This document shows positions 13,507-30,932 of a stretch of 64,000 nucleotides of DNA, in pieces. The DNA is from Gammaproteobacteria bacterium (GTDB lineage: Bacteria; Pseudomonadota; Gammaproteobacteria; Steroidobacterales; Steroidobacteraceae), in NCBI GenBank assembly GCA_025357835.1, contig JANYLM010000024.1, forward strand, positions 1 through 64,000, read 5' to 3'. Positions within the stretch are counted from its first letter, which is position 1. Each line of letters begins with the position of its first letter. The notes beneath the pieces are model-generated. The model saw only the letters and a program-made list of their open reading frames with translations. It was not told where the DNA came from and searched no databases. The translations under genes were made by a program, and so were the position numbers.

Positions 13507-14046
13507 ATGCTCTCGACATCTGACTCCCGTACCGAGATATTCACCAAGCTCTTCGCTGAGAGCCGCGAAGCGTTGCACCGATATATCCGACGCTTCGTTG
13601 GGTCGAGCGAAACGGCGAAAGAAATCGTCCAGGAAGCATTTCTTCGGACCTACCGGGAACGCGAGTCAGTGACGACCTTAAGAGCTTTTCTTTTTTCGAC
13701 CGCGCGCAATCTTGCCGCAAACGAATACCGCCACCGACGAGTCGTGGAGAGGGATACTTTGGGGAATTTCGATAATTCCCGGGTGACACTCCAGTGTGAG
13801 TCGCTGGAGTCAGAGTTGCTCAGAGACGAACGGAGCCGGCTCATACAGGAGGCGATCGATCGTTTGCCCCGGCAATGCCGCGCGGCCTTTACCCTGCGGG
13901 TATTTCATGAGTGTTCCTACAAAGAGGTTGCGGACCGACTCGGAATCTCGGTCAAGACGGTGGAGAAACACATCGCGCGCGGTCTGCGCGAGACGCACAG
14001 CTATTTGAAAATACGCTATAGCGCGACGAGGCCGGACCATGGGTGA
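13507..14046 (+). CDS. ECF RNA polymerase sigma factor, FecI-like
   Basis: A 179-residue extracytoplasmic-function sigma factor. Region 2 (about 10-80) has SSETAKEIVQEAFLRTYRE for -10 recognition and core binding. Region 4 (about 115-170) has LPRQCRAAFTLRVFHECSYK then EVADRLGISVKTVEKHIARG, the helix-turn-helix for -35 contact. The arrangement and 'SVKTVEKHIARGL' are typical of the FecI group. The FecR gene overlaps its last codons and a signalling TonB-dependent receptor follows, so it should transcribe this receptor and possibly the genes after it when the receptor is occupied by ligand. Confidence 0.95.
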   Translation: MLSTSDSRTEIFTKLFAESREALHRYIRRFVGSSETAKEIVQEAFLRTYRERESVTTLRAFLFSTARNLAANEYRHRRVVERDTLGNFDNSRVTLQCESLESELLRDERSRLIQEAIDRLPRQCRAAFTLRVFHECSYKEVADRLGISVKTVEKHIARGLRETHSYLKIRYSATRPDHG

Positions 14047-15067
14047 CGTTCATAGGTTGCCGAGGGTCGATGACACGGAGCGTGAGGCTAGCGCGTGGCT
14101 TGCCCGCATGAACGCCGACGACGTGACTGTGGACGATGGCACTCGCCTTGAGGTGTGGCTGCGCGCTCATCCACGCAACGCTAAGGCATACGCGGAGCTT
14201 TCCGCCACCTGGCAGGAACTCTTGAACGTCGGTCCCCTCGTTCGGGCTGTCAATTTCGGCCAAGTGATGAACGCCGCCGCCGTGCCGCCTGCGCCGCGCC
14301 GACGCTGGACGACTATCGCGGTGGCTGCCAGTGTCGGGGCACTCGTTGTTGGCGTCGCGTGGAACCTGTACAAACAAAAGGAAGAGAGCCGCTTCCAAAC
14401 GGCGATCGGGGAGCAGGCCGCCGTGGCATTGCCCGACGGCTCCTCGTTCGATCTCAATACCAACAGTCGGGTACAGGTCGACTACAGTCGGCGCACTCGC
14501 GTCATTCGTCTTGAACGCGGCGAGGCCTATTTCAAAGTAGCACATGATACGGAACGGCCTTTTTGGGTGCACGCCGGCGACTATTGGGTCCGCGCGGTCG
14601 GAACGGCGTTCAACGTCTACATGAGGCCGACCGGGGTGGAAGTAACGGTGAGCGAGGGCACGGTCAATGTGGTCAACGCGACGGCGAATGAGTCCCCTCC
14701 ATCGGATGCGTCGATAACCAAGTCTGCTGCAGCCGTGACTGCCGGCGAGCAGGCCGACGCACACGGCCGCGCCGAGGTGATTCACGAGCTCAATTCGGTG
14801 CAGCTCAGCCGCCTGCTGGCCTGGAGAAAGAGCAGCCTCTATTTCCAGGATCAGCCGCTCGGTGATGTCGTCAATGAGCTGATGCGATACACCACCCTGC
14901 AGATCGATTTCGACGACGATGCGCTGCGCCGGCTGCCGGTAGGAGGTACGTTCAAGACGGGCCCTGACGGGGTGGAGGCGTTGTTGACGATGTTGCATGA
15001 CGGATTTGGCACGACCATCCGCAGAGATGGCGAGGGGCATGTTCACATCGAAGGCCCCGCCAAGTAG
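14039..15067 (+). CDS. FecR-type anti-sigma factor/inner-membrane signal transducer
   Basis: A 342-residue protein. The cytoplasmic N-terminal region (1-80, DDTEREASAWLARMNADDVT, with the FecR_N/DUF4880 helical domain) would hold the sigma factor. One membrane segment at about 85-105 (WTTIAVAASVGALVVGVAW) is followed by the periplasmic FecR domain (about 110-220: TAIGEQAAVALPDGSSFDLN, RGEAYFKVAHD, RPFWVHAGDYWVRAVGTAFN). A C-terminal STN-like segment, SSLYFQDQPLGDVVNELMRY, would contact the receptor's signalling domain. The ATG overlaps the sigma stop region by 8 bases, implying translational coupling and matched stoichiometry. Confidence 0.95.
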   Translation: MGDVHRLPRVDDTEREASAWLARMNADDVTVDDGTRLEVWLRAHPRNAKAYAELSATWQELLNVGPLVRAVNFGQVMNAAAVPPAPRRRWTTIAVAASVGALVVGVAWNLYKQKEESRFQTAIGEQAAVALPDGSSFDLNTNSRVQVDYSRRTRVIRLERGEAYFKVAHDTERPFWVHAGDYWVRAVGTAFNVYMRPTGVEVTVSEGTVNVVNATANESPPSDASITKSAAAVTAGEQADAHGRAEVIHELNSVQLSRLLAWRKSSLYFQDQPLGDVVNELMRYTTLQIDFDDDALRRLPVGGTFKTGPDGVEALLTMLHDGFGTTIRRDGEGHVHIEGPAK

Positions 15068-15225: not shown

Positions 15226-18200
15226 TTGAAAACGAGCAACAGCTTGGTTCGGTTGGCGGTATTGCGGGCGCTGACATGCACATCGGGGCTGCTTCTGGCC
15301 ACGCCTGGTAGCGCGAGCGCCGATCCGGCGCGATTCGACATTGCGGCACAACCGCTGCCCAATGCACTCAAAAACTTTGCCGCACAGGCGAAGATGCAAC
15401 TTCTGTACCGATACGATACCGTAAGCCATTCGACGGCTAGTGCGGTGACCGGGCAGCTGGAAAAGCACGCCGCCCTGGAGCAATTGTTGCGAGGCACGGG
15501 ATTGGAGGCGGTATACAGCAACGACAATACCGCCACCATTCGCTTCATTTCCTCTGGAGAAAGAGCAGCCCCCGGCACTAAAGCGGCAGATGGCGATAGG
15601 CTGTTTCCGAGCAGTGCACCTCCGAAAACCTCCTCGGCGCAAGATGCAAATCCGGGATATATCCGGGTCGCTCAAGCAGGTTCTGACCTGCAGCCGGCCG
15701 CCGTGCCGAATAACGGCCTCGAGGAGATAACCGTGACGGGCCTGCGCCAGTCAATAATCAACTCCATGACCATCAAGCGTGACTCTCTGGGGATTGTCGA
15801 TGCCATCGCGCCCCAAGATATCGGTAAGCTGCCCGATGCCAATCTGGCCGAGTCATTGCAGCGCATAACCGGCGTGTCCATCGATCGCTCCGGCGGTGAA
15901 GGTGAGTTCGTCACCGTTCGCGGTTTTGGTCCGGAATTCAATACTGTCCTGCTCAACGGGCGGCAGATTGCCACGCCGACCGATCCCAGCCAGGCCAGCG
16001 GGCGCGCCTTTTCGTTTGACACGCTGGCGTCGGAACTGGTTTCCGGCGTCGAGGTGTACAAATCCTCCACGGCGCACCTTCAGTCCGGCGGGGTGGGCTC
16101 GACCATCAATATTAAGACTGCGAGGCCCTTCGACTATTCCGGATTCAAATTCGCAGGTTCTGCCGATGCCAATTATGAGGAAAATTCCAAAAAGGCCTCG
16201 CCGGACGGCTCATTTCTGCTCAGCGACAGATTTGCCGACGGAAACTTGGGTCTTTTGGCATCGGGCAGCTATCAGCACCGCAAGGACCGGCTAAATACTG
16301 TTGCAACAGACGGCTGGATCGTCAACCCCGCAGTTCCGGCTGCTGCGATCAACGGGGGGGCTGGGGTGATTACGCCGTCAAATCCCAACGGCAATTTATT
16401 CGTTCCGCAAGACTTCGGACCGAATGTGAATTTCGAGGATCGCGAGCGGATTGGGGGCACCTTGGTGCTGCAATACAAGGCCAGTGACGCTCTGACGATT
16501 ACCGCCGACACGCTGTATTCGCGATTCACCGACAAGTCCGACGATCGTTCGTACGGTCATTGGTTCACGCCATCCAACCTGACCAACGTTACTACCGACG
16601 CCCATGGAACAGTGATCGATATGACGCAGGGTGTTGGCCAGGCGTCCGACTTCCACGACAAGTCATACAGCAAAAAGACCGATACCATCGCGGGCGGCCT
16701 CAACGCAGACTGGAAGCTCGCCGATCGCATTACACTCAACTTGGACGGCAGCTTCTCGCATGCCAAGGAAGATCCAAACGGTGGCGCGGAGAGCCAACTC
16801 GCGTTGCTCGGGTTTCCCGGGCAGACGGTTCGCTTTCGATCGGATGGGGAGATCGTGCCCTATGTCACCGGTTTCATTCAGCCGACGAGTGGCACCAACG
16901 CCGGCGTAGTGGGTGGCACGCATCCCCTTTTCGAGCATGTCATGCTTCTTCGCGGCTATGGCGTCGACGACAAGGTGTATCAGTTTCGTGCCGACTTGGA
17001 CATCAAGGGCGACAATCCGAAGGAGGGATTGGTCGATTTGCGTTTGGGCGGTTACTTTTCTCACGATCAAAAGGACACGGCACTCTATTCGAATGATGGC
17101 CTGACGGGCTGCGCGACCTGCGGCTACACCATCGCCGCGCCAGCGAGTTTACCGATCGGCCTATTCGACGCCGGCAGCAACTTCCTGTCGGGAGTGAGTG
17201 GCGCGAATCGTACACCGGCCCAGTGGCTCACCTTCAATGGGCCGGCATTGTTCAATGCGATCACGCAAGAGCAAGGGGCAACTAAGCCCGGCTTTACGTT
17301 TGCTCCACCACTGCGGAACGATTCGTTGGTCACGGAGCGGGTCTTCGGCGGATATTTGGAAACCGTATTCGGCGGCAGCTTGCTCGATCGTCCATTCTCC
17401 ACTGTCGTGGGGGTGCGTGCCGAGAACACGCAATCGACGGTCAGCGGTCTGGCGACCCCGTTCATTGCACTGACCAAGCTGCTGACTGATGCCACACAAT
17501 ATGGCGTTACGACCGGTGGCACCGCCACGGTATCGGCCACAAACACCTATACGGATATTCTGCCCAACCTGTCGTTCAAGTGGGATTTGACGGACAACCT
17601 GATTGGGCGGTTTGCCGCTTCGCAAACGATGACGCGTCCGACTCTCGAGGAGCTTTCACCGGTCACGACACTGGTAACGCTGCGACCCGGTAATTTCGCG
17701 GCATCGAGCGGCACCGCCAACCTGAGCCCTTTCCGATCCAATAACCTCGATCTTTCCGTCGAATACTACTACGGCAACGGAAACTACGCCTCGGTCGGTG
17801 CGTTCTACAAGACCGTCAGCAACTTCATCGTTCTGAACCAAACGACCGGCACGGTGAAGAATTCGGTCGGCACCCCGCTGCTCGATCCAGCGACCGGATT
17901 GCCGGCCCAGTTCACTATCACTGCGCCTGCGAACGGGCCAAGCTCGGTGGTGACCGGCCTGGAAGCGGCGCTCCAGCAAGCATTCGGCGACACCGGCTTC
18001 GGGGCCCAGCTCAACGGTACGCTGGCGCATAGCGACAAGAAGCTGGACCCTACCAATCTGACCAACAAGTTCGCGCTGACTGGACTATCCAACTCGGCCA
18101 ACGCCGTGTTGTTCTATGACAAAGGGGTATTCGAGGCCCGTACCGCTCTGAACTGGCGCGATCACTTCTTGCAGTATCTGTCGCCGCCGCCGTTGAACGG

Positions 18201-18408
18201 CGCCGGTCAGGCGGTGACTCAGGTGCGTTCACGCTACCAGCTGGATGCGAGCGCCACCTACCACATCAATAAGAACTTTGGAATTTTCGTGGAAGGCGCG
18301 AATCTAACCAACCAATATCTTTTGAAGTACGCTTACTACGAGAACCAGTTTCTCTCCGCGGAAGATAGCGGACGCAGGTGGAAGATCGGCGTTCGCGGCG
18401 GGTTCTGA
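15226..18408 (+). CDS. TonB-dependent receptor with N-terminal signalling (STN) domain
   Basis: A 1060-residue outer-membrane receptor; TTG start with GGGGGG upstream. Signal peptide (to about residue 32), then an STN domain (about 35-105: FDIAAQPLPNALKNFAAQAK) of the FecA/FpvA type that touches FecR. A linker leads to a TonB-box-like EEITVTG, the plug (about 170-290, GGEGEFVTVRGFGPEFNTVL and the 'QSGGVGSTINIKT' end), and a 22-strand barrel ending ...RRWKIGVRGGF with the outer-membrane C-terminal Phe. The NGRQIATPTDPSQASGRAF segment is typical of the large Xanthomonas/Caulobacter-type receptors associated with glycan or other organic substrates rather than classical siderophores. The ligand is unknown. 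It is directly behind its sigma/anti-sigma pair. Confidence 0.93.
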   Translation: MKTSNSLVRLAVLRALTCTSGLLLATPGSASADPARFDIAAQPLPNALKNFAAQAKMQLLYRYDTVSHSTASAVTGQLEKHAALEQLLRGTGLEAVYSNDNTATIRFISSGERAAPGTKAADGDRLFPSSAPPKTSSAQDANPGYIRVAQAGSDLQPAAVPNNGLEEITVTGLRQSIINSMTIKRDSLGIVDAIAPQDIGKLPDANLAESLQRITGVSIDRSGGEGEFVTVRGFGPEFNTVLLNGRQIATPTDPSQASGRAFSFDTLASELVSGVEVYKSSTAHLQSGGVGSTINIKTARPFDYSGFKFAGSADANYEENSKKASPDGSFLLSDRFADGNLGLLASGSYQHRKDRLNTVATDGWIVNPAVPAAAINGGAGVITPSNPNGNLFVPQDFGPNVNFEDRERIGGTLVLQYKASDALTITADTLYSRFTDKSDDRSYGHWFTPSNLTNVTTDAHGTVIDMTQGVGQASDFHDKSYSKKTDTIAGGLNADWKLADRITLNLDGSFSHAKEDPNGGAESQLALLGFPGQTVRFRSDGEIVPYVTGFIQPTSGTNAGVVGGTHPLFEHVMLLRGYGVDDKVYQFRADLDIKGDNPKEGLVDLRLGGYFSHDQKDTALYSNDGLTGCATCGYTIAAPASLPIGLFDAGSNFLSGVSGANRTPAQWLTFNGPALFNAITQEQGATKPGFTFAPPLRNDSLVTERVFGGYLETVFGGSLLDRPFSTVVGVRAENTQSTVSGLATPFIALTKLLTDATQYGVTTGGTATVSATNTYTDILPNLSFKWDLTDNLIGRFAASQTMTRPTLEELSPVTTLVTLRPGNFAASSGTANLSPFRSNNLDLSVEYYYGNGNYASVGAFYKTVSNFIVLNQTTGTVKNSVGTPLLDPATGLPAQFTITAPANGPSSVVTGLEAALQQAFGDTGFGAQLNGTLAHSDKKLDPTNLTNKFALTGLSNSANAVLFYDKGVFEARTALNWRDHFLQYLSPPPLNGAGQAVTQVRSRYQLDASATYHINKNFGIFVEGANLTNQYLLKYAYYENQFLSAEDSGRRWKIGVRGGF

Positions 18409-18557: not shown

Positions 18558-20111
18558 ATGGTGAACCCGGTTCGATCGATTTGCATAGTCGGCGGCGGCA
18601 CGGCGGGATGGCTTACGGCCGGCATCATTGCGGCACGCCACGCTTCCGAATCCGGCTGCGGCCTGCAAATTACATTGGTTGAGAGCGAGACCATCGGCAT
18701 CGTCGGCGTAGGCGAGGGCACCTGGCCGACGATGCGTACAACTTTAAAGAAGATGGGCATTTCGGAAACGGACTTTTTCCGCGAGTGCAATACCTCGTTC
18801 AAGCAGGGTGCGAAGTTCGCGCGGTGGGTTACCGGTGAAGAGTCCGATTTCTACTATCATCCGCTGGTGCTGCCCCAGGGCTTTCCGAGCCTCGATCTCG
18901 CACCCTTCTGGACGAGGTACTCGGATGGCGGTGGCGATGCCCGCTCGTTCTCCGATGCAGTATGCTTTCAGGAGGCGGTTTGCGAACTGGGCCTCGCACC
19001 CAAATTGATCACCTCGCCCGAATATGCCGGGGTCGCAAACTACGCATATCATCTGGACGCCGGCCGCTTCGCCCCCTTCATTCGCGATCATTGCCTCAAA
19101 AAGCTTGGCGTACGCCACATCGTCGATGAAGTTACCGAGGTCGTCAAAAACGACGCGGGGGACATCGATTACGTGGAAACCCGCAAGTCTGGCCGGCTTC
19201 GCGGCGACCTTTTTATCGACTGTTCTGGATTCCGGTCGTTATTGCTTGGGCAAACGATGGGCGTGCCCTTCGTCGATTGCAGCGATGTTCTTTTTATCGA
19301 TCGCGCGCTGGCGATGCAGGTGCCCTATGACGACGAACAAAGCGCCATTATCCCGCATACGGTGTCGACCGCGCAGAAGCATGGCTGGATTTGGGACATC
19401 GGGCTGCAAAGCCGGCGCGGAGTAGGCTACGTCTTTTCGAGCAACCATACTACCTCGGATGCCGCCCTTGCGGAACTGCGCGCGTATGTCGGGGAAGCGC
19501 ATCGCGACTTGCAGCCCAGGGAGATAAAAATTGTATCGGGGCATCGTCAGACATTTTGGAAGGGAAATTGCGTTGCGGTTGGCCTCGCGGGGGGGTTTCT
19601 GGAGCCTCTCGAAGCGTCCGCTCTGGTGCTGATAGAACTATCTGCCGATATGATCAGCACCATGATGCCGGCAACGCGCGAGACGATGGATATTGTTGCC
19701 AAGCGCTTCAACGAAACGACTCAATATCGCTGGGATCGGATTATCGATTTTCTAAAGCTCCACTATATTCTCAGTAAACGCACGGATTCGAAATTCTGGA
19801 TCGACAATCGCCATCCCGATAGCATTCCGCAGAGTCTGAAGGAGCAGATGGAGCTTTGGCGCTATAGGGCGCCGGGCGACCAGGATTTCACCAGCAACAA
19901 TGAGATGTTTCCTGCCGCGAGCTATCAGTATGTGCTGTTTGGCATGGGCTTTAGAATGGATACACACGTGTCGCCGCTGGGTCGCGACATTGCCAGCGCC
20001 CAGCGGGCGTTCGCACAGAACGAAGCGCTTAAAGTGAAATGGACGAAAACACTCCCAAAGAATCGCGACTTGATCAACAAGATCAAACAGCTTGGGCTTC
20101 AGAAGATCTAG
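18558..20111 (+). CDS. Flavin-dependent halogenase (tryptophan-halogenase family)
   Basis: A 517-residue FADH2-dependent halogenase. The N-terminal Rossmann motif GGGTAGW is at 12-18. The GVGEGTWPTM segment precedes Lys82 in NTSFKQGAKF, the position of the catalytic lysine (Lys79 of PrnA) that guides hypohalous acid. GGFLEPLEASAL carries the conserved Glu region. The diagnostic WxWxIP motif appears as WIWDIG, so Pro is Gly; from memory this variant occurs in receptor-linked halogenases such as those of Xanthomonas and BrvH, which favour bromide and free indoles. No flavin reductase is adjacent. It starts a run with SapC and DUF6445 behind a TonB-dependent receptor. The natural substrate is unknown. 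Confidence 0.92.
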   Translation: MVNPVRSICIVGGGTAGWLTAGIIAARHASESGCGLQITLVESETIGIVGVGEGTWPTMRTTLKKMGISETDFFRECNTSFKQGAKFARWVTGEESDFYYHPLVLPQGFPSLDLAPFWTRYSDGGGDARSFSDAVCFQEAVCELGLAPKLITSPEYAGVANYAYHLDAGRFAPFIRDHCLKKLGVRHIVDEVTEVVKNDAGDIDYVETRKSGRLRGDLFIDCSGFRSLLLGQTMGVPFVDCSDVLFIDRALAMQVPYDDEQSAIIPHTVSTAQKHGWIWDIGLQSRRGVGYVFSSNHTTSDAALAELRAYVGEAHRDLQPREIKIVSGHRQTFWKGNCVAVGLAGGFLEPLEASALVLIELSADMISTMMPATRETMDIVAKRFNETTQYRWDRIIDFLKLHYILSKRTDSKFWIDNRHPDSIPQSLKEQMELWRYRAPGDQDFTSNNEMFPAASYQYVLFGMGFRMDTHVSPLGRDIASAQRAFAQNEALKVKWTKTLPKNRDLINKIKQLGLQKI

Positions 20112-20137: not shown

Positions 20138-20881
20138 ATGCGTCTCGTCGAACTGTCGCGCAGCGAACACGCTGGATTGCGGATCCGCGATGATCTGGTT
20201 GAAGCATCTGCGGCTAGTCAACACTTGGTACCGATCGTCGTGAGCGAATTTCGCAAAGCCGCGATCCACTACCCGATCGTTTTTGCAAAAAATCCTGAAA
20301 CGGGGCGCTTCGCTCCTTATGTCTTGAACGGGTTGGGCGTCGAAGAGAATTTGTTCTGGTCAGGGACTGAGATGGACGTCGCTTATGTGCCGTTGAACGT
20401 GCGGCGGCAGCCATTCTATGTGGGAACGAACGATGCGCCGGATGCTCCCGCCACAAACGTGCTCTGCATCGACCTCGACAGCCCGTGTTTAGACGGTTCG
20501 GGCGGGAAAACGCTAGTCAATCCCGACGGGAGCGATTCTTCGTATCTCAAGGAGATACTGTCCGTTTTGGGCGAATTGGTCGCAGGAAAAGACACGACCG
20601 AGAGCTTTATTGCAACCGTGCTCGCGTTGGAGCTGCTTGCTCCCATCGTGCTCGACATAGTGCTTGATGATGGCACACCGCTGCAAATCGAAGGACTATA
20701 CGGTCTTGATGAGGAAAAATTCAGGCAGCTCGATGAAGAGCGAATCGCCACGCTGTGGAAGGCCGGCTGCCTTGACCTAATTTATAGCGTATTGATTGCC
20801 AGTGGACACATATTCAATCTCATTCGGCTGAAGAACCAGCGCATTGCCCTGAGTCGTGCGTGGCATAGTAACCCGACCTAA
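20138..20881 (+). CDS. SapC family protein
   Basis: A 247-residue soluble protein matching SapC. The N-terminal signature VPIVVSEFRKAAIHYPIVF with NPETGRFAPYVLNGL, 'ENLFW', and 'AYVPLNVRRQPFYV' are typical. SapC was named from a Campylobacter S-layer locus, but the proteobacterial members are almost always next to TonB-dependent receptors and halogenase-like genes, and their biochemical role is unknown. There is no signal peptide, so it is cytoplasmic. 26 bases separate it from the halogenase and 2 bases from the next ORF's earliest start, so the three are probably co-transcribed. A binding or recruitment role for the imported substrate is inference only. Confidence 0.88.
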   Translation: MRLVELSRSEHAGLRIRDDLVEASAASQHLVPIVVSEFRKAAIHYPIVFAKNPETGRFAPYVLNGLGVEENLFWSGTEMDVAYVPLNVRRQPFYVGTNDAPDAPATNVLCIDLDSPCLDGSGGKTLVNPDGSDSSYLKEILSVLGELVAGKDTTESFIATVLALELLAPIVLDIVLDDGTPLQIEGLYGLDEEKFRQLDEERIATLWKAGCLDLIYSVLIASGHIFNLIRLKNQRIALSRAWHSNPT

Positions 20882-20901
20882 CATTGTGCTTGGGGCTATT
20901 G

Positions 20902-21675
20902 ATGAGTGATGAATCACGCGATGCGGCGCTATTCGCATTTAACAACGATGCGGAAGTGAAGCTGGTACATGTTGGGCGGCGGGGAATTCGCGTGAGCAGG
21001 ATCGACAACGTCCTGCACGACCCCGAGGGCGTTGCCGCCCTGGGTTTCGCTCAATCCTACTCCAAGGACCCCAGCAATCTTTACCCTGGTATGCGGGCCC
21101 CCATTCCTAAGAGCTTCTCGACCGCGTTCCGTGCCTGGCTCACGCCGATCCTCCGCCGATACGGCGTGTTGGAGGGTAATCAGGCTATATATCACGATGA
21201 AAGTTTTTTCTCTGTCGTTACCACTGCGAGCACGGACCTGCTGCCAATCCAGGCTATCCCCCACTTTGATTCAGCGGACCCTAATTTGTATGCAGCAGTG
21301 ATTTATTTGTGCGATACGAGGTTTTCCGGGACGACGTTCTATAGGCATCGAAAAACCGGATATGAAGAAATAACGGCGGAAAATCACAATAATTATAATA
21401 TCTCTCTCGATAACGATTTGCGAATCCATGGGGTTCCGAAGAAAGAGTATGTCAATGGAGATAGTTTGCTGTTTGAGGCTATTTTCACGAATGAATTGAA
21501 GTTCAATAGCGCAATAGTCTATCCAAGTAGAATTCTTCACGCGGCAGATATAGATAGACAGTTCAATCCGCCGAGAGATAAGAGCGAATGGCGCCTCACT
21601 GTGACGGCATTGCTACAATCGTCTTGGGTTACAAACACCAATACAGAAGTCGCGGCGGACGACTACAAACGCTGA
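20902..21675 (+). CDS. DUF6445 protein, possible Fe(II)/2OG oxygenase fold
   Basis: A 257-residue cytoplasmic protein starting MSDESRDAALF; an upstream TTG is less likely. It belongs to DUF6445, a family linked to receptor/SapC/halogenase clusters. In it I see a candidate facial triad: His121 and Asp123 in IPHFDSADPN, distal His213 in YPSRILHAADI, and a basic Arg231 in SEWRLTV, plus SGTTFYRHRKTG between them. The order HxD...H...R and the spacing fit prolyl-hydroxylase-like Fe(II)/2-oxoglutarate oxygenases. The family identity is fairly secure; the oxygenase idea is my inference from motif spacing. The last 100 residues are notably richer in Asn, Ile and Tyr than its neighbours. Confidence 0.8.
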   Translation: MSDESRDAALFAFNNDAEVKLVHVGRRGIRVSRIDNVLHDPEGVAALGFAQSYSKDPSNLYPGMRAPIPKSFSTAFRAWLTPILRRYGVLEGNQAIYHDESFFSVVTTASTDLLPIQAIPHFDSADPNLYAAVIYLCDTRFSGTTFYRHRKTGYEEITAENHNNYNISLDNDLRIHGVPKKEYVNGDSLLFEAIFTNELKFNSAIVYPSRILHAADIDRQFNPPRDKSEWRLTVTALLQSSWVTNTNTEVAADDYKR

Positions 21676-21952
21676 CTATGCGGATGTAATCGGCACAGTA
21701 CCGCTCCTCTCCACGTGCGAGCAGTTCAGCAATTGTCGAAAAAAGTATCCTGGAGCGCTCATTCGGCTATGGTCCGTATTGACTCCCACCCGGAAGGCAC
21801 ATAGCTTCTATGGGCTCGTCCAAAGAACCTCAGAGCCTTGACGCGGTAAGAGCAGCCGAGTCTGGCTATGCTCGGTTCGGCAGGCGGGGTAGAACCAGGT
21901 CTTGGAAAACATAGAACCGAGGATTCCCTTCAATGCGTCACGACGTTTGCCC
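21676..21952. other. Gap between DUF6445 gene and permease
   Basis: 277 bases up to the chosen permease start. No hairpin with a T tract and no small gene with a ribosome binding site are visible. The permease may have its own promoter here, and its assignment to the halogenase cluster is therefore uncertain. Confidence 0.3.
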
Positions 21953-23371
21953 ATGCCACCTGCAATGATTGAAACCCGATCGATCGACTACATCCCCGAC
22001 GCTGAGCGTCACGGCGGACTCGCGAGCCAATTCACCTTGTGGTTGAGTGCAAACATGCAGATCACGGCGATCGTGACCGGTGCGCTTGCCGTCGTTCTGG
22101 GAGGCGATGTCTTCTGGTCCCTGGTGGGTCTGCTCGCGGGCCAGTTGATCGGAGGAGGGGTGATGGCCCTGCACGGCGCGCAGGGTCCGCAACTCGGGCT
22201 GCCGCAGATGATCTCCTCGCGGGTGCAATTCGGCGTCTATGGCGCCGCGATACCGATCGTCGCGGTCTGTTTGATGTACATCGGATTCTCCGCGAGCGGC
22301 TCGATTCTTGCCGGTCAGGCGCTCGCGCAACTATTACGCGTCGACTTATCGTGGGGAATCGTCGTCTTCGCGGCGTTGATCATCGTCGTGACGATGTTCG
22401 GCTATAGGGTAATCCATTGGCTCGGACGCATATCGACTGCGGTGGGGATCGCCGCCTTCGCCTACATGTTTTATAGGCTGCTGGCTCAGCACGACGTCGC
22501 TGCCCTGTTGAGGATACGGCACTTCTCGCTGAATCATTTCCTGCTCGCCATGTCGCTCTCGGCATCCTGGCAGATCGCGTTCGGGCCCTACGTTGCCGAC
22601 TACTCGCGCTATCTGCCGCGTACAATCCACGCCGGTAGCGTGTTCGCCGCCGTCGGGCTCGGTTCGATCATCGGGGCGCAGGTCGCCATGACCTTCGGTG
22701 TGCTGGCAGCTGCGCTCGCCGGTGCTGAGTTCGAGCACCATGAGGTCGCCTACATCGTCCACCTCGGCTCGACCGGTGCCGTGGCTGCTTTGCTCTTTTT
22801 CTGCATCGCCTTTGGCAAGATCATGGTGACCTCGCTCAATTCGTACGGAAGCTTCATGTCGATGGCAACCCTGGTCAGCGGCTTTCGGGGCACGGTGCGC
22901 CTCTCGCGCAGGAACCGTGTGGTCTACATCGTCGCGGCGGTGGGACTGGCCTGTGGGCTGGCCTTGGCCGGGAAGGATTCCTTCCTGAAGAGCTTCGAGG
23001 CCTTCATTCTCTTGTTGCTCGCGGTATTCACGCCCTGGAGTGCGATCAATCTGGTCGACTACTACTGCTTTACGCGATCGCGTTACGACGTACCTGCGCT
23101 CACCGATCCGAACGGGCGTTATGGGCGATGGAACATGAGGGGGATCGTGGTTTATCTCATCGGTGTCCTCGTGCAGATCCCCTTTCTCGCGACCGGCCTA
23201 TACACCGGTCCGTGCGTCGCAGCCCTCGGCGGTGCCGACATCTCTTGGATCCTCGGCCTCACCGTGCCCAGCCTTATTTACTATGTGGCTGCGCGCCGCT
23301 CCGATCGCCGGATTCCCGCCCAGCTGATCGTGCCGGAGGTAGCGGTCGCCGCCGCAGGGCGTGTGCGCTGA
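21953..23371 (+). CDS. NCS1 family purine/cytosine-type permease
   Basis: A 472-residue inner-membrane transporter with about 12 hydrophobic segments, belonging to the nucleobase:cation symporter-1 family (CodB, PucI, Mhp1 relatives). The N-terminal approach ERHGGLASQFTLWLSANMQI, the first helix pair with unwound Gly-rich stretches (IGGGVMALHGAQGPQLGLPQM) and the scaffold-helix segment SWQIAFGPYVADYSRYLP are typical. NCS1 members take up cytosine, purines, hydantoins, thiamine or pyridoxine; the substrate cannot be read from sequence. Start choice: MPPAMIETR at 21953 rather than the tracked upstream start. Upstream lies the halogenase cluster and downstream an orphan regulator. Confidence 0.88.
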   Translation: MPPAMIETRSIDYIPDAERHGGLASQFTLWLSANMQITAIVTGALAVVLGGDVFWSLVGLLAGQLIGGGVMALHGAQGPQLGLPQMISSRVQFGVYGAAIPIVAVCLMYIGFSASGSILAGQALAQLLRVDLSWGIVVFAALIIVVTMFGYRVIHWLGRISTAVGIAAFAYMFYRLLAQHDVAALLRIRHFSLNHFLLAMSLSASWQIAFGPYVADYSRYLPRTIHAGSVFAAVGLGSIIGAQVAMTFGVLAAALAGAEFEHHEVAYIVHLGSTGAVAALLFFCIAFGKIMVTSLNSYGSFMSMATLVSGFRGTVRLSRRNRVVYIVAAVGLACGLALAGKDSFLKSFEAFILLLLAVFTPWSAINLVDYYCFTRSRYDVPALTDPNGRYGRWNMRGIVVYLIGVLVQIPFLATGLYTGPCVAALGGADISWILGLTVPSLIYYVAARRSDRRIPAQLIVPEVAVAAAGRVR

Positions 23372-27091: not shown

Positions 27092-28459
27092 TCACTTGCC
27101 GATGATAAATACTTCCTGCGAAGTGATGCTTCGGGTGAAGCCGTCCTTGAAGGCTTTCGCTCGAACCACCGCGGGATTCGTGAGTTCGATCGGCTTCTCG
27201 TAGCGCATGTCCGTGGGTCCCGGCACGCTCCCATCCAGGGTGTAGCGAATGTCGGCGCCGAGTTCGCGCTCGGCCAATGAGATCTTGATCGGCCCGTCAA
27301 ACGTGCCACCTTGCGGCGACATGGCGGGTGGGTCCAAAACCTGCCGGCCAGGTAAAGTTAAAATCCAATCCCGCAGCAGCGATACGCCATTTTGATCGAT
27401 TGTTTCACGTGCGATCGGCGGCATCTTGATGTCATCGAGGGTATTCACCCGCATGAATGCGATGGAGCGCCACACATCGTGCGGCGAAATCACCCGCGGC
27501 CTATCGATCCCCTGGTCGATCAATACCGGCCCCTCGATGATGTCCTGCTTCTCGATTGGCGTGTCGTAACGGGCGTCAAAGTATGCAACCGTACCGCCCG
27601 GCCGATGACACTGCGAGCAATTCACATCCAGGTACGATCGGGCCCTATCTTGTATGCTTCGCGTCACGTCGTCGGCGGCCGCGAGTGTCGGTAGCCTCGC
27701 GAGATCAGCGTCGTTCACTGTTGGTGTAAACATACCGAGGTGATTCCACGCCCTCAGCTCATTGTCCGTCACCCCCGATGGGTAGGTAAATGCACGATTC
27801 ATCTGTCGCGCTTTCACGCCGAGCACTCCCGTGGTCTTGGCGTTATGACAAGTCAGGCAATCCGCACGGCTCGGGTAGTACCATGTCTGTCTCTGGACTT
27901 CTCCAGTCGCCGCTTTTATCGGAATCTCTTCGGTTCGGCTCGACTCCAGTAAATCCGCATCGCTGTTGTCCGGCCGCCATTTATAGACGGCGCCGTACAC
28001 GCCACCGCCGCTGTCGCACACCAGCAGACGCGTCTCAAGCCGCCGCTTAATGCGGGGGTCGGCGGCGTCGGTCGACAGCTCGAAGGTCTTGACGAAAACC
28101 GTGCCCCGCGGAAAGGTCCAATCGCCGGTGGGTGAATATTTTATCTTCTCGTTCGGTACCGCCACCCACCGGGATTTGACGGCTCCATCGGACCAAAAAG
28201 CTACGACGATGTCGTATGGAATCAGGCCTTTGTCCGGCACCAGGTCGCGCGTAACGCTGAAGGCGCCGGTTTGCGAAAGCAGCGGCGGGATTTTGCCACC
28301 CGCCAAGTGCGGCATTCGCAAATAGGGCGTCGGCGCCGATCGGACGGCAAGACCATGCGGGAGAACCTCAGTCTTGCTCCCCGCTCCGGCGTTTGACACG
28401 CCGGCGAACGTGATGGCAACCAGTAGGAATGCGAAAAGAGTAGGGTATTTCCACGCCAC
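27092..28459 (-). CDS. Diheme cytochrome c with C-terminal CHB_HEX-type domain
   Basis: A 455-residue exported protein (signal peptide MAWKYPTLFAFLLVAITFAG to about residue 25). Two c-type heme sites are visible: CLTCH (about 215) and CSQCH (about 290). The rest of the first 370 residues (FWSDGAVKSRWVAVPNEKIK, PRGTVFVKTFEL, TWYYPSRADCLTCH) matches the SO_2930-type diheme cytochrome family of unknown partner. The last 80 residues (SPQGGTFDGPIKISLAEREL, IRYTLDGSVPGPTDMRYEKP) form a chitobiase/beta-hexosaminidase C-terminal-like Ig domain, which may aid carbohydrate or protein binding. It ends 12 bases from the convergent propeller gene and lies downstream of a TonB-dependent receptor on the same strand, so co-expression with the receptor is likely. 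Confidence 0.88.
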   Translation of the reverse strand: MAWKYPTLFAFLLVAITFAGVSNAGAGSKTEVLPHGLAVRSAPTPYLRMPHLAGGKIPPLLSQTGAFSVTRDLVPDKGLIPYDIVVAFWSDGAVKSRWVAVPNEKIKYSPTGDWTFPRGTVFVKTFELSTDAADPRIKRRLETRLLVCDSGGGVYGAVYKWRPDNSDADLLESSRTEEIPIKAATGEVQRQTWYYPSRADCLTCHNAKTTGVLGVKARQMNRAFTYPSGVTDNELRAWNHLGMFTPTVNDADLARLPTLAAADDVTRSIQDRARSYLDVNCSQCHRPGGTVAYFDARYDTPIEKQDIIEGPVLIDQGIDRPRVISPHDVWRSIAFMRVNTLDDIKMPPIARETIDQNGVSLLRDWILTLPGRQVLDPPAMSPQGGTFDGPIKISLAERELGADIRYTLDGSVPGPTDMRYEKPIELTNPAVVRAKAFKDGFTRSITSQEVFIIGK

Positions 28460-28625
28460 AGGAAGTTCCGACCCATTCTGTAGTCGACAGTTCCTGCTAC
28501 TGATCGCTCAATCCTTCAATCCAGGTGGGGACACGCGTCAATATATACTTTGTATCGGCGCGCGCCCACTGCAAGCGCCCCGCAGAGAATGGTGAAAAGG
28601 ATAGTCGGTTCGCGCGCCGCTGGGT

Positions 28626-30932
28626 TTAGAACTTGCACTGCAGCGACAGCCCCGCGGTGCGCGGCTGGTTGGTGAACATGCGCGTACGAGTGGTCGCGGA
28701 GTAGTTGTCGGAAAGGTAGTGCGAAAGCGCCGCTTGCTTGTCGAATACATTGCTCACGAATAGATTCGCTTCCCAGGCGCCGCGGGTGATGCCTGAGCGT
28801 AGATCGAGCAAAGCGTATGCCCGCTGGAAGGTCGCCGGATCGGTGCGCTGAAAGTCTGGATAGGACACCCCGACAAATTGTGCGTCGGCGCGCACGAAAC
28901 CGTCCGCGCCAGAAAAGAGAGTGAACAAGTATTTGGCGTTGGCATTGGCGTTCCATTGCGGCACGTTCTCCAATTGCTGGCCCTTTACGCCGCCCAGCGA
29001 AGGCGCATCCGCGGCGAGTACCGCCTTGGCATAGCCCACGCCGCCGCCGAGCTGAATGTGGGCGCCGATATTGCCCTGGATTTCAACTTCACCGCCATGG
29101 ACGGTGGCTGCCCCTGCGTTCTCGGTGATTTGATAGGAACATGATAGGGTTTTGCCCTGCTGCACGCCGTTCCACTTGATGTAGTACGCCGCCGCATTCA
29201 CCGTGAGAGCGCCGTCCAGCCAGCGCGTCTTGGCTCCGCCCTCGTAGTTCCACAAGCTGTCTGGTCCATACGGGCCGTAATCCTGGCCACAGCCTTTTTT
29301 AGAGAGATTGCTGGTGTTCACGCCGCCCGGCCGCACGCCCTTCGAAGCGAGCAGGTAGTACAATTGTTCTTGGGTGGCCTGATAGGAGATCTCGGCCTTG
29401 GGGTTGAAGCCAGTGTTCTTCGCCGAGCCTTCCGATAGCGTCGGACCACCGTTGCTCCAGCCATCTTCGTAGCGGACCGCGGTGTACTGCATGTCGTACC
29501 AGCGCAGACCGGCGGTCGCCTTCCATTGGCTGGTGATCGCATAGTTAAGCTCGGCGAACACGGCCGACTGCTTGGGAGAATAGTCGCCGTGTTGGGAATA
29601 GTTGACGTCGCTCAGCGGCAGGTAGGGCGCAGAGCTGGGTGAATTGCTGAACAGCGCCGCATAATTCGGGGTCAGGTAGTTCACATAGTAGTGGCGATTG
29701 GCGTTGTTGAAAAAGGCCCCGGTCACCCCGCTCAAGGCCCAGCCCTCGGGATTGAACGCAACGCGTAGTTCCTCGGTCAGCTCTCGCGTGGTGACGATGG
29801 GTGCGTACACATTCGGCACGAATTGGCCCTGCGGAATGGTGTTCTCGAGCGCCTCGGTTTCATCGTCCGGGTTTGTTTCCTGGCGGCGCATGTAGGAGGT
29901 GGTGGAAAGCACGCTGCCCCAACCGAGATCGTAGTTCATGGTGAGGTTGCTGAGTACGAAGCGATCCGAATAGGCCTCCGACACATTGAAAGGTCGGGCC
30001 TGGATCAGGGGACCGCTCGAATTACCGGCGGGGATGTCGTAATTCGGCAAGCCGCCCATCTGCAGATCCTGCAGCCAGACCGATGGGGTGATCGAAAAGG
30101 CATCCGTGACTGCGACTTTCAGCATGGTCCGCAAGCTGTACAGCTTTTCCGAGTTGACGTTGCGGACGATGGAACTGGGGCCGGCCGGCGCAACGGGGTA
30201 GGGAAGTTGCGCACCGGGGCTGGGCGCCCAGACACCGACGTAGCGATCGATAAAGCCACTGAAGTCCTTGTAAGTGCCCACGATGCGCAACGCCACCCGA
30301 TCCTCGATTAATGGCATGTTGTACATGGCATCCAGCCGAGCGTTGCCGCCGCCATGTTCCGTGTAAGAGCCCTCGATCTTGACCGCGCCCTGCTGCTTGG
30401 TCAGGTTCGGCTGATTCGTGATCAGGCGCACCGTGCCGCCCATGGAGCTTGCTCCATACAGAGTGCCCTGCGGCCCGCGCAGAATCTCGATGCGAGATAA
30501 GTCGAAAAGATCCGGGTCTATGCCCGCGGTAGCGCCGTCGCCGCCGGAGGGCAGGATGGGCGTATCGTCGATGTACGTGCCGGTGGTAGGCGCGTTGCCG
30601 CCCACGGAGGCGATACCGCGGATCGAGAAACTGCTCTGACCCGGTCCCGCGGAGTTTAGGGTCACTCCGGGGATGCGCGCCGCCAGCGAGGAGAAGTCTT
30701 GGACGCCGGTTTCAGCCAACGTTTCCGAGGTAAAGGCGACGACGCTTAAAGGAACATTTTGCAGCCTCTCGCTGCGCTTTTCGGCCGTGACGATAATGTC
30801 CTCGAGGACTCCCGACTGCCCTGCGGTTACCGCCGCTTGTTGGGCATGCACAGCCTGGGTACCGGCCAAAATCCACAGGACCGCTACGACGCCGGCAACC
30901 TTAAGCCGATTTGCCCCCAGTTGAGTCCGCAT
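28626..30932 (-). CDS. TonB-dependent receptor
   Basis: A 768-residue outer-membrane receptor without a signalling domain. Signal peptide to about residue 31 (HAQQAA). A TonB-box-like DIIVTAEKRSERLQNVPLSV, then the plug (about 50-170) with PGVTLNSAGPGQSSFSIRGI and the 'RIEILRGPQGTLYGASSMGG' end. The barrel ends GLSLQCKF with the C-terminal Phe. The 'IVTAEKRxExLQxVPxSV' start is typical of the large family in sphingomonads and gammaproteobacteria that imports diverse organic compounds as well as iron complexes; the ligand is unknown. GGAAG precedes the ATG, and an AT-rich segment with TATAAT lies about 30 bases upstream. The diheme cytochrome gene follows after 166 bases. Confidence 0.93.
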   Translation of the reverse strand: MRTQLGANRLKVAGVVAVLWILAGTQAVHAQQAAVTAGQSGVLEDIIVTAEKRSERLQNVPLSVVAFTSETLAETGVQDFSSLAARIPGVTLNSAGPGQSSFSIRGIASVGGNAPTTGTYIDDTPILPSGGDGATAGIDPDLFDLSRIEILRGPQGTLYGASSMGGTVRLITNQPNLTKQQGAVKIEGSYTEHGGGNARLDAMYNMPLIEDRVALRIVGTYKDFSGFIDRYVGVWAPSPGAQLPYPVAPAGPSSIVRNVNSEKLYSLRTMLKVAVTDAFSITPSVWLQDLQMGGLPNYDIPAGNSSGPLIQARPFNVSEAYSDRFVLSNLTMNYDLGWGSVLSTTSYMRRQETNPDDETEALENTIPQGQFVPNVYAPIVTTRELTEELRVAFNPEGWALSGVTGAFFNNANRHYYVNYLTPNYAALFSNSPSSAPYLPLSDVNYSQHGDYSPKQSAVFAELNYAITSQWKATAGLRWYDMQYTAVRYEDGWSNGGPTLSEGSAKNTGFNPKAEISYQATQEQLYYLLASKGVRPGGVNTSNLSKKGCGQDYGPYGPDSLWNYEGGAKTRWLDGALTVNAAAYYIKWNGVQQGKTLSCSYQITENAGAATVHGGEVEIQGNIGAHIQLGGGVGYAKAVLAADAPSLGGVKGQQLENVPQWNANANAKYLFTLFSGADGFVRADAQFVGVSYPDFQRTDPATFQRAYALLDLRSGITRGAWEANLFVSNVFDKQAALSHYLSDNYSATTRTRMFTNQPRTAGLSLQCKF

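Follow-up and report, generated by a model that had tools for sequence, protein, structure and literature searches.

The cytoplasmic 2-oxoglutarate (2OG) dioxygenase CciO of Caulobacter is strictly and specifically required for the function of the neighbouring TonB receptor CciT (PMC12004947). A DUF6445 protein encoded in a 64,000-nucleotide stretch of a Steroidobacteraceae genome (GCA_025357835.1, contig JANYLM010000024.1, positions 1 to 64,000; hereafter the window) resembles enzymes of this PiuC/CciO type (2OG-FeII_Oxy_3) in its predicted fold, in the pairing of four residues in a profile alignment and in having a TonB receptor gene as neighbour. It differs from them in belonging to a separate sequence family, the window protein not being recognized by Pfam as 2OG-FeII_Oxy_3, and in its setting: DUF6445 genes are found in sugar or FecIR receptor loci, whereas enzymes of the CciO/PiuC type go with the Fur-regulated CciT and the Fiu/PiuA receptors.

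The ribosomal prolyl hydroxylases OGFOD1 and Tpa1 share the superfamily fold with the DUF6445 model at approximately 10% identity. They are eukaryotic and larger (approximately 460-560 residues in the solved chains), whereas DUF6445 is a single domain of 257 amino acids with an insertion at residues 150-190 and a His-to-Arg spacing of 18 residues. Bacterial PPHD and human PHD2 are likewise similar in fold, at approximately 10-14% identity, but nothing here points to EF-Tu or HIF, their substrates, as targets of DUF6445. Based on the analyses described below, DUF6445 is very probably an Fe(II)/2OG-dependent oxygenase. It would be a new family of a known superfamily, and what is more novel is that it belongs to a gene set linked to receptors.

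The DUF6445 gene and its neighbours in the window

The gene identified as DUF6445 in the initial annotation was recovered exactly, as an ORF of 257 codons followed by a stop (Table 1). An in-frame TTG six codons 5′ of the start gives an alternative ORF at positions 20884-21675. The protein matched PF20043 (DUF6445) over residues 16-237 with 201.9 bits (gathering cut-off 24; E = 1.7e-59); no other significant family was obtained in the Pfam search and no NCBIfam model matched. HMMER searches of PDB sequences retrieved no relative, the best hits (E = 0.54 with the single protein and 0.39 with a 22-row profile) both being spurious, as plain HMMER cannot detect a relationship this remote. The Pfam copy used, dated 2025, describes the function of PF20043 as unknown, although its assignment to the Fe/2OG enzymes may already be implicit in a placement in the cupin/DSBH clan by Pfam or InterPro. 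In a literature search with little coverage of subscription journals, so that earlier notice is possible, neither a paper mentioning DUF6445 or PF20043 nor any biochemical data on the family were found. A Pfam-based whole-genome search of 398 genomes sampled from the phylum detected the family in 30, and the source genome of the window carries a single DUF6445 gene.

DUF6445 is the last gene of a tightly packed set on the same strand, consisting of genes for an ECF sigma factor, FecR, a TonB receptor, a tryptophan-halogenase-family protein (TrpH), SapC and DUF6445, with gaps after FecR of 158, 149, 26 and 20 bp. Because of this tight packing, the set appears to be an operon transcribed as one unit. 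A gene for an NCS1-family nucleobase/thiamine permease (21902-23371) follows DUF6445 at a distance of 226 bp in the same orientation and probably belongs to a separate unit.

Characterized tryptophan halogenases carry a WxWxIP motif, of which WIWDIG in the window TrpH is a variant, and instead of a halogenase the protein could be a monooxygenase. Its match to QhpG was weak (E = 1.1e-5; 24.6 bits against a cut-off of 240).

Table 1. Positions in the window of the DUF6445 gene, its predicted active-site codons and the genes preceding it.
Feature	Positions	Strand	Remarks
ECF sigma factor, FecI-like, first gene of presumed unit	13507..14046	+	Sigma70_r4_2 E=1.3e-18, Sigma70_r2 5e-11
FecR anti-sigma regulator, overlaps sigma gene	14039..15067	+	PF04773 E=1.9e-21
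TonB-dependent receptor with STN domain, TonB-Xanth-Caul subfamily	15226..18408	+	TIGR01782 632.6 bits; STN, Plug, barrel domains
Tryptophan-halogenase-family flavoenzyme (TrpH)	18558..20111	+	PF04820 E=4e-127; ECNTSFK at 76, WIWDIG at 277, EPLE at 349
SapC-family protein, 20 bp 5′ of DUF6445	20138..20881	+	PF07277 E=5e-56
DUF6445 gene, 257 aa, predicted Fe(II)/2OG oxygenase	20902..21675	+	predicted metal ligands H121, D123, H213; predicted 2OG anchor R231
HxD codons His121-Phe122-Asp123 of DUF6445 gene	21262..21270	+	invariant 109/109
SGTTFYRH, residues 142-149 of DUF6445 protein; predicted core strand 144-149	21325..21348	+	
His213 codon of DUF6445 gene, predicted distal metal ligand	21538..21540	+	invariant 109/109
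Arg231 codon of DUF6445 gene, predicted 2OG-anchoring	21592..21594	+	invariant 109/109

Conserved residues and predicted fold of DUF6445

The initial annotation had read H121, D123, H213 and R231 as the facial triad and 2OG-anchoring Arg of an Fe(II)/2OG oxygenase. These residues were found at the positions given, with the segment SGTTFYRH between the HxD motif and the distal His. All four were invariant in 22 sequences and then in 102 of 102 aligned homologues having approximately 22-66% identity to the window protein. Following addition of seven highly divergent Pfam members, they were retained in all 109 sequences, and the proposed alignment of homologues thus revealed no variability at any of the four positions.

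Homologues were obtained by Pfam-based whole-genome search and from a genome contig scan, in which 80 of 561 loci were kept. The scan pattern that supplied these 80 homologues, GT[AGS]F[YF]R[HQ][RK]xT, includes none of the four residues. For the choice of reading frame, the ORF had to contain P-H/N-x-D at any position; all 80 loci passed and none was lost.

Strict invariance was confined to eight columns of the 102-sequence alignment (L113, Q117, P120, H121, D123, T144, H213 and R231), half of them being the residues named beforehand. H121 and H213 were the sole histidines of the window protein in columns conserved at least 90%. T144, within the GGTxFYRH segment, was also invariant in the full set of 109. 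The seven divergent members, with scores that are weak for Pfam (31.7-52.1 bits), kept the H, D, H and R residues, while five of them lacked hallmarks such as Q117 and P120. Judged from the aligned sequences, the four-residue match is not due to chance.

Five loci (L025, L026, L027, L029 and L030) make up a divergent DUF6445 subgroup of the form VHIDP...GILYL...GGTxFFRH...NGRL, in which QxxPHxD and YPGxRA are absent and the triad and Arg are retained. This subgroup may merit a separate family.

An AlphaFold2 model of the window protein, built from an 81-row alignment, had a mean pLDDT of 94.5 and a pTM of 0.90. The top matches of this model in a Foldseek search of the PDB were Fe(II)/2OG oxygenases, namely human OGFOD1 (E = 1.7e-5), AndA, TqaL, Tpa1, HygX, the CurA halogenase domain and PPHD, and a few structures of uncharacterized proteins were also present among the top 50. 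Using VIA-align, the best match was again OGFOD1 (Z 15.2 over 179 residues, 3.0 Å). Further Z values were 13.9 for PasI, 13.5 for Tpa1, 13.4 for a mimiviral lysyl hydroxylase, 12.5 for PPHD, 12.2 for PHD2 and 11.9 for PiuC, all well above the level of 7-8 quoted for models without a clear match. The initial annotation had called for a comparison with PHD/PiuC-type enzymes; a likeness to PPHD, PHD2 and PiuC was confirmed at the superfamily level but was not closer than that, as OGFOD1/Tpa1, PasI and the lysyl hydroxylases were nearer. The model places H121 at a strand or bridge position and H213 in strand 213-215, with R231 directly before strand 232-242. We read these predicted placements as consistent with strands II, VII and VIII in the 2OG-oxygenase fold.

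Signs of kinship with known 2OG oxygenases were also seen at the sequence level. 2OG-FeII_Oxy_3 was weakly but specifically matched by 8 of 81 DUF6445 members (best E 0.005) and was the only family other than DUF6445 matched by more than three of them; one divergent member matched 2OG-FeII_Oxy_5 at 0.0067. The window protein itself gave no match to PF13640 (2OG-FeII_Oxy_3/PiuC) at the gathering cut-off. When the 109-sequence alignment was compared with 27 2OG-FeII_Oxy_3 proteins using hhalign, an E-value of 2e-4 over 183 columns was obtained, this value being that of a pairwise comparison to which hhalign itself assigned a probability of 47%. The HxD motif of the 2OG-FeII_Oxy_3 proteins was aligned to H121 and D123, their distal His to H213 and their Arg to R231. 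Control alignments of five unrelated families (SapC, Cupin_8, FecR, TrpH and sigma factors) gave E-values of 0.025 to 0.57. In an earlier comparison with a narrower alignment (E = 6e-4), H213 and R231 were paired and the HxD motif was offset by a few columns. Pairing of all four residues came from the seven added divergent members, another MAFFT mode and the looser setting -mact 0.1, and the HxD pairing is partly setting-dependent. The profile pairing is therefore regarded as support, not proof, the fold match being the stronger evidence. Both speak indirectly for the four side chains coming together in space.

Taken together, DUF6445 has the defining features of the Fe(II)/2OG superfamily that can be tested in sequence and fold: an HxD...H triad (H121, D123 and H213) and, after the distal His, a basic residue (R231, paired with the 2OG-FeII_Oxy_3 Arg and presumably anchoring 2OG), each in all 109 sequences, together with a double-stranded β-helix in the predicted structure. 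The initial reading as an Fe(II)/2OG oxygenase is thus supported for fold and active-site residues by the invariance, the high-confidence model and the profile pairing.

Genomic context and proposed function

In 74 DUF6445 loci, the genes found within four genes of DUF6445 encoded a TonB receptor (49 loci), TrpH (47), SapC (22), alpha-amylase (13), FecR (11), LacI (11) and Cupin_8 (11), these counts resting on automatic ORF picking and on loci selected by similarity to the window protein. Starch-type loci (alpha-amylase, GH97, LacI, MFS), arabinoxylan-type loci (GH10, GH43, GH62, arabinofuranosidase, receptor, TrpH) and FecI/FecR-type loci, to which the window locus belongs, could be distinguished. 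About one third of the loci had neither receptor nor TrpH nearby, some of these adjoining alkaline phosphatase or amino-acid genes. Raw distance correlations over 21 four-gene loci, calculated without species-tree control, showed mutual rho values of 0.90-0.95 for receptor, TrpH and SapC, and of 0.56-0.65 for DUF6445 with those three. Because of this weaker co-variation, DUF6445 looks like an accessory oxygenase of receptor/TrpH/SapC loci rather than a core part of them.

In four alphaproteobacterial loci (L059, L072, L077 and L107, including Hyphomonadaceae, Maricaulis and Aquidulcibacter), DUF6445 terminates a conserved run. In L059, this run includes genes for an asparaginase-family protein, an amino acid kinase family protein, a THDPS N-succinyltransferase and an M20 peptidase, without a TonB receptor, which is a lysine/DAP-type context.

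In the proposed mechanism, H121, D123 and H213 would bind Fe(II) and R231 would anchor 2OG, while the family-specific YPGxRA (residues 61-66) and the 150-190 insertion may shape the substrate site. We infer that the protein is catalytic and that its chemistry is hydroxylation, which is favoured over halogenation because Asp123 is invariant. DUF6445 is presumably cytoplasmic, as no signal peptide was evident by eye in its N-terminus (MSDESRDAALFAFNND). Alongside the flavin-dependent TrpH and SapC, it would hydroxylate a substrate needed by the co-encoded TonB receptor system, the candidates being the proteins of the system itself and the ligands that it imports. Gene order and the CciT-CciO precedent in Caulobacter suggest by analogy that DUF6445 may support TonB receptor function, to which we assign about an even chance.

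As to the substrate, the receptor/TrpH/DUF6445 set persists while the carbohydrate context varies (alpha-amylase, GH97 and LacI; GH10, GH43, GH62 and arabinofuranosidase), and an enzyme specific for one imported sugar is therefore unlikely. This leaves two classes of about equal likelihood on present evidence, proteins of the receptor system and a shared small molecule.

Action on a small molecule rather than a protein, whether the molecule is imported as a ligand or is a secondary metabolite shared with TrpH, is a serious candidate to which we give slightly less than an even chance. Free Trp and indoles are the classical halogenation substrates of TrpH-family enzymes, and the presence of TrpH as a neighbour fits this reading, as do the small-molecule substrates of several top fold matches (PasI, PolD, HygX, SnoN, AsqJ and AndA). 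The models proposed for CciT-CciO, too, concern small molecules, invoking a receptor substrate or a transport inhibitor (PMC12004947). However, the ligands of the loci differ chemically (alpha-glucans, arabinoxylan and FecIR-regulated ligands), which makes one common imported substrate unlikely, and no sign of a biosynthetic gene cluster was seen around the family-scanned genes.

To the same degree, DUF6445 might be a protein hydroxylase with the receptor precursor, SapC or some other protein of the locus as its substrate. The top solved folds include the protein hydroxylases OGFOD1, Tpa1, LH3-type lysyl hydroxylases and PPHD, although a substrate is not predictable from fold similarity, and the receptor is the feature common to the diverse sugar loci. 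QhpG is a flavin monooxygenase that oxidizes a Trp residue inside a protein; the resemblance of the window TrpH to this enzyme points in the same direction, but the match lies far under the cut-off. Against this reading, the CciT protein is still made without CciO (PMC12004947), though this observation does not bear on modification.

A catalytically dead protein or a sensor retaining the 2OG-oxygenase fold is very unlikely, since the triad and Arg are strictly retained in 109 sequences while most of the remainder diverges to 22-40% identity; nothing in its favour was found. Fe/2OG halogenases have Ala or Gly in place of the HxD Asp, and a halogenase function for DUF6445, to which the adjoining halogenase-family gene and the CurA halogenase domain among the fold matches might point, is the least probable of all given the invariant Asp123.

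With hydroxylation as the favoured chemistry, the label of unknown function gives way to a specific chemistry that can be assayed. DUF6445 would be a second oxygenase family tied to TonB-dependent receptors, beside the CciO/PiuC case, and the recurring receptor-TrpH-SapC-DUF6445 set would place the flavin 'tryptophan halogenases' of such loci in a natural context, for whose native substrate no description was found in the literature search. A search combining SapC, tryptophan halogenase and TonB retrieved nothing on DUF6445 or its gene set. A broader proposal, which we consider doubtful as a whole, is that DUF6445 might belong to a previously undescribed cytoplasmic module made up of TrpH, SapC and one or two Fe/2OG oxygenases (DUF6445 and/or Cupin_8). 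In proteobacterial starch, xylan and FecIR loci, this module would carry out oxidative modification of TonB receptors or of a peptide on which they depend.

TrpH loci and Cupin_8 in the source genome

TrpH occurs in full length three times in the source genome, always in the vicinity of a TonB-Xanth-Caul receptor gene: on C49 (the window) with SapC and DUF6445, on C102 as receptor followed by TrpH, and on C108 as receptor, Cupin_8, SapC and TrpH. As all three lie near a receptor and their partners differ, TrpH and receptor are a recurrent pair, the Fe/2OG-type partner varying by locus; this pattern agrees with the distance correlations over 21 loci.

A Cupin_8 protein was encoded in some receptor-SapC-TrpH loci, with or without DUF6445 (L033, L063, L082, L099, C108, L160, L164 and L168), and is possibly a second Fe/2OG oxygenase of the gene set. 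Cupin_8 (PF13621) resembles DUF6445 in occurring in common loci (11 of 74) and in having a conserved HxD motif and distal His (H173, D175 and H257 in the L033 protein), but it is a JmjC-like family and no profile similarity between the two was detectable (E = 0.11).

The C108 receptor (27970-30782; L174 and L175) was split into two overlapping TonB-Xanth-Caul matches with an in-frame TGA in each, and represents either a frameshifted pseudogene or an assembly error.
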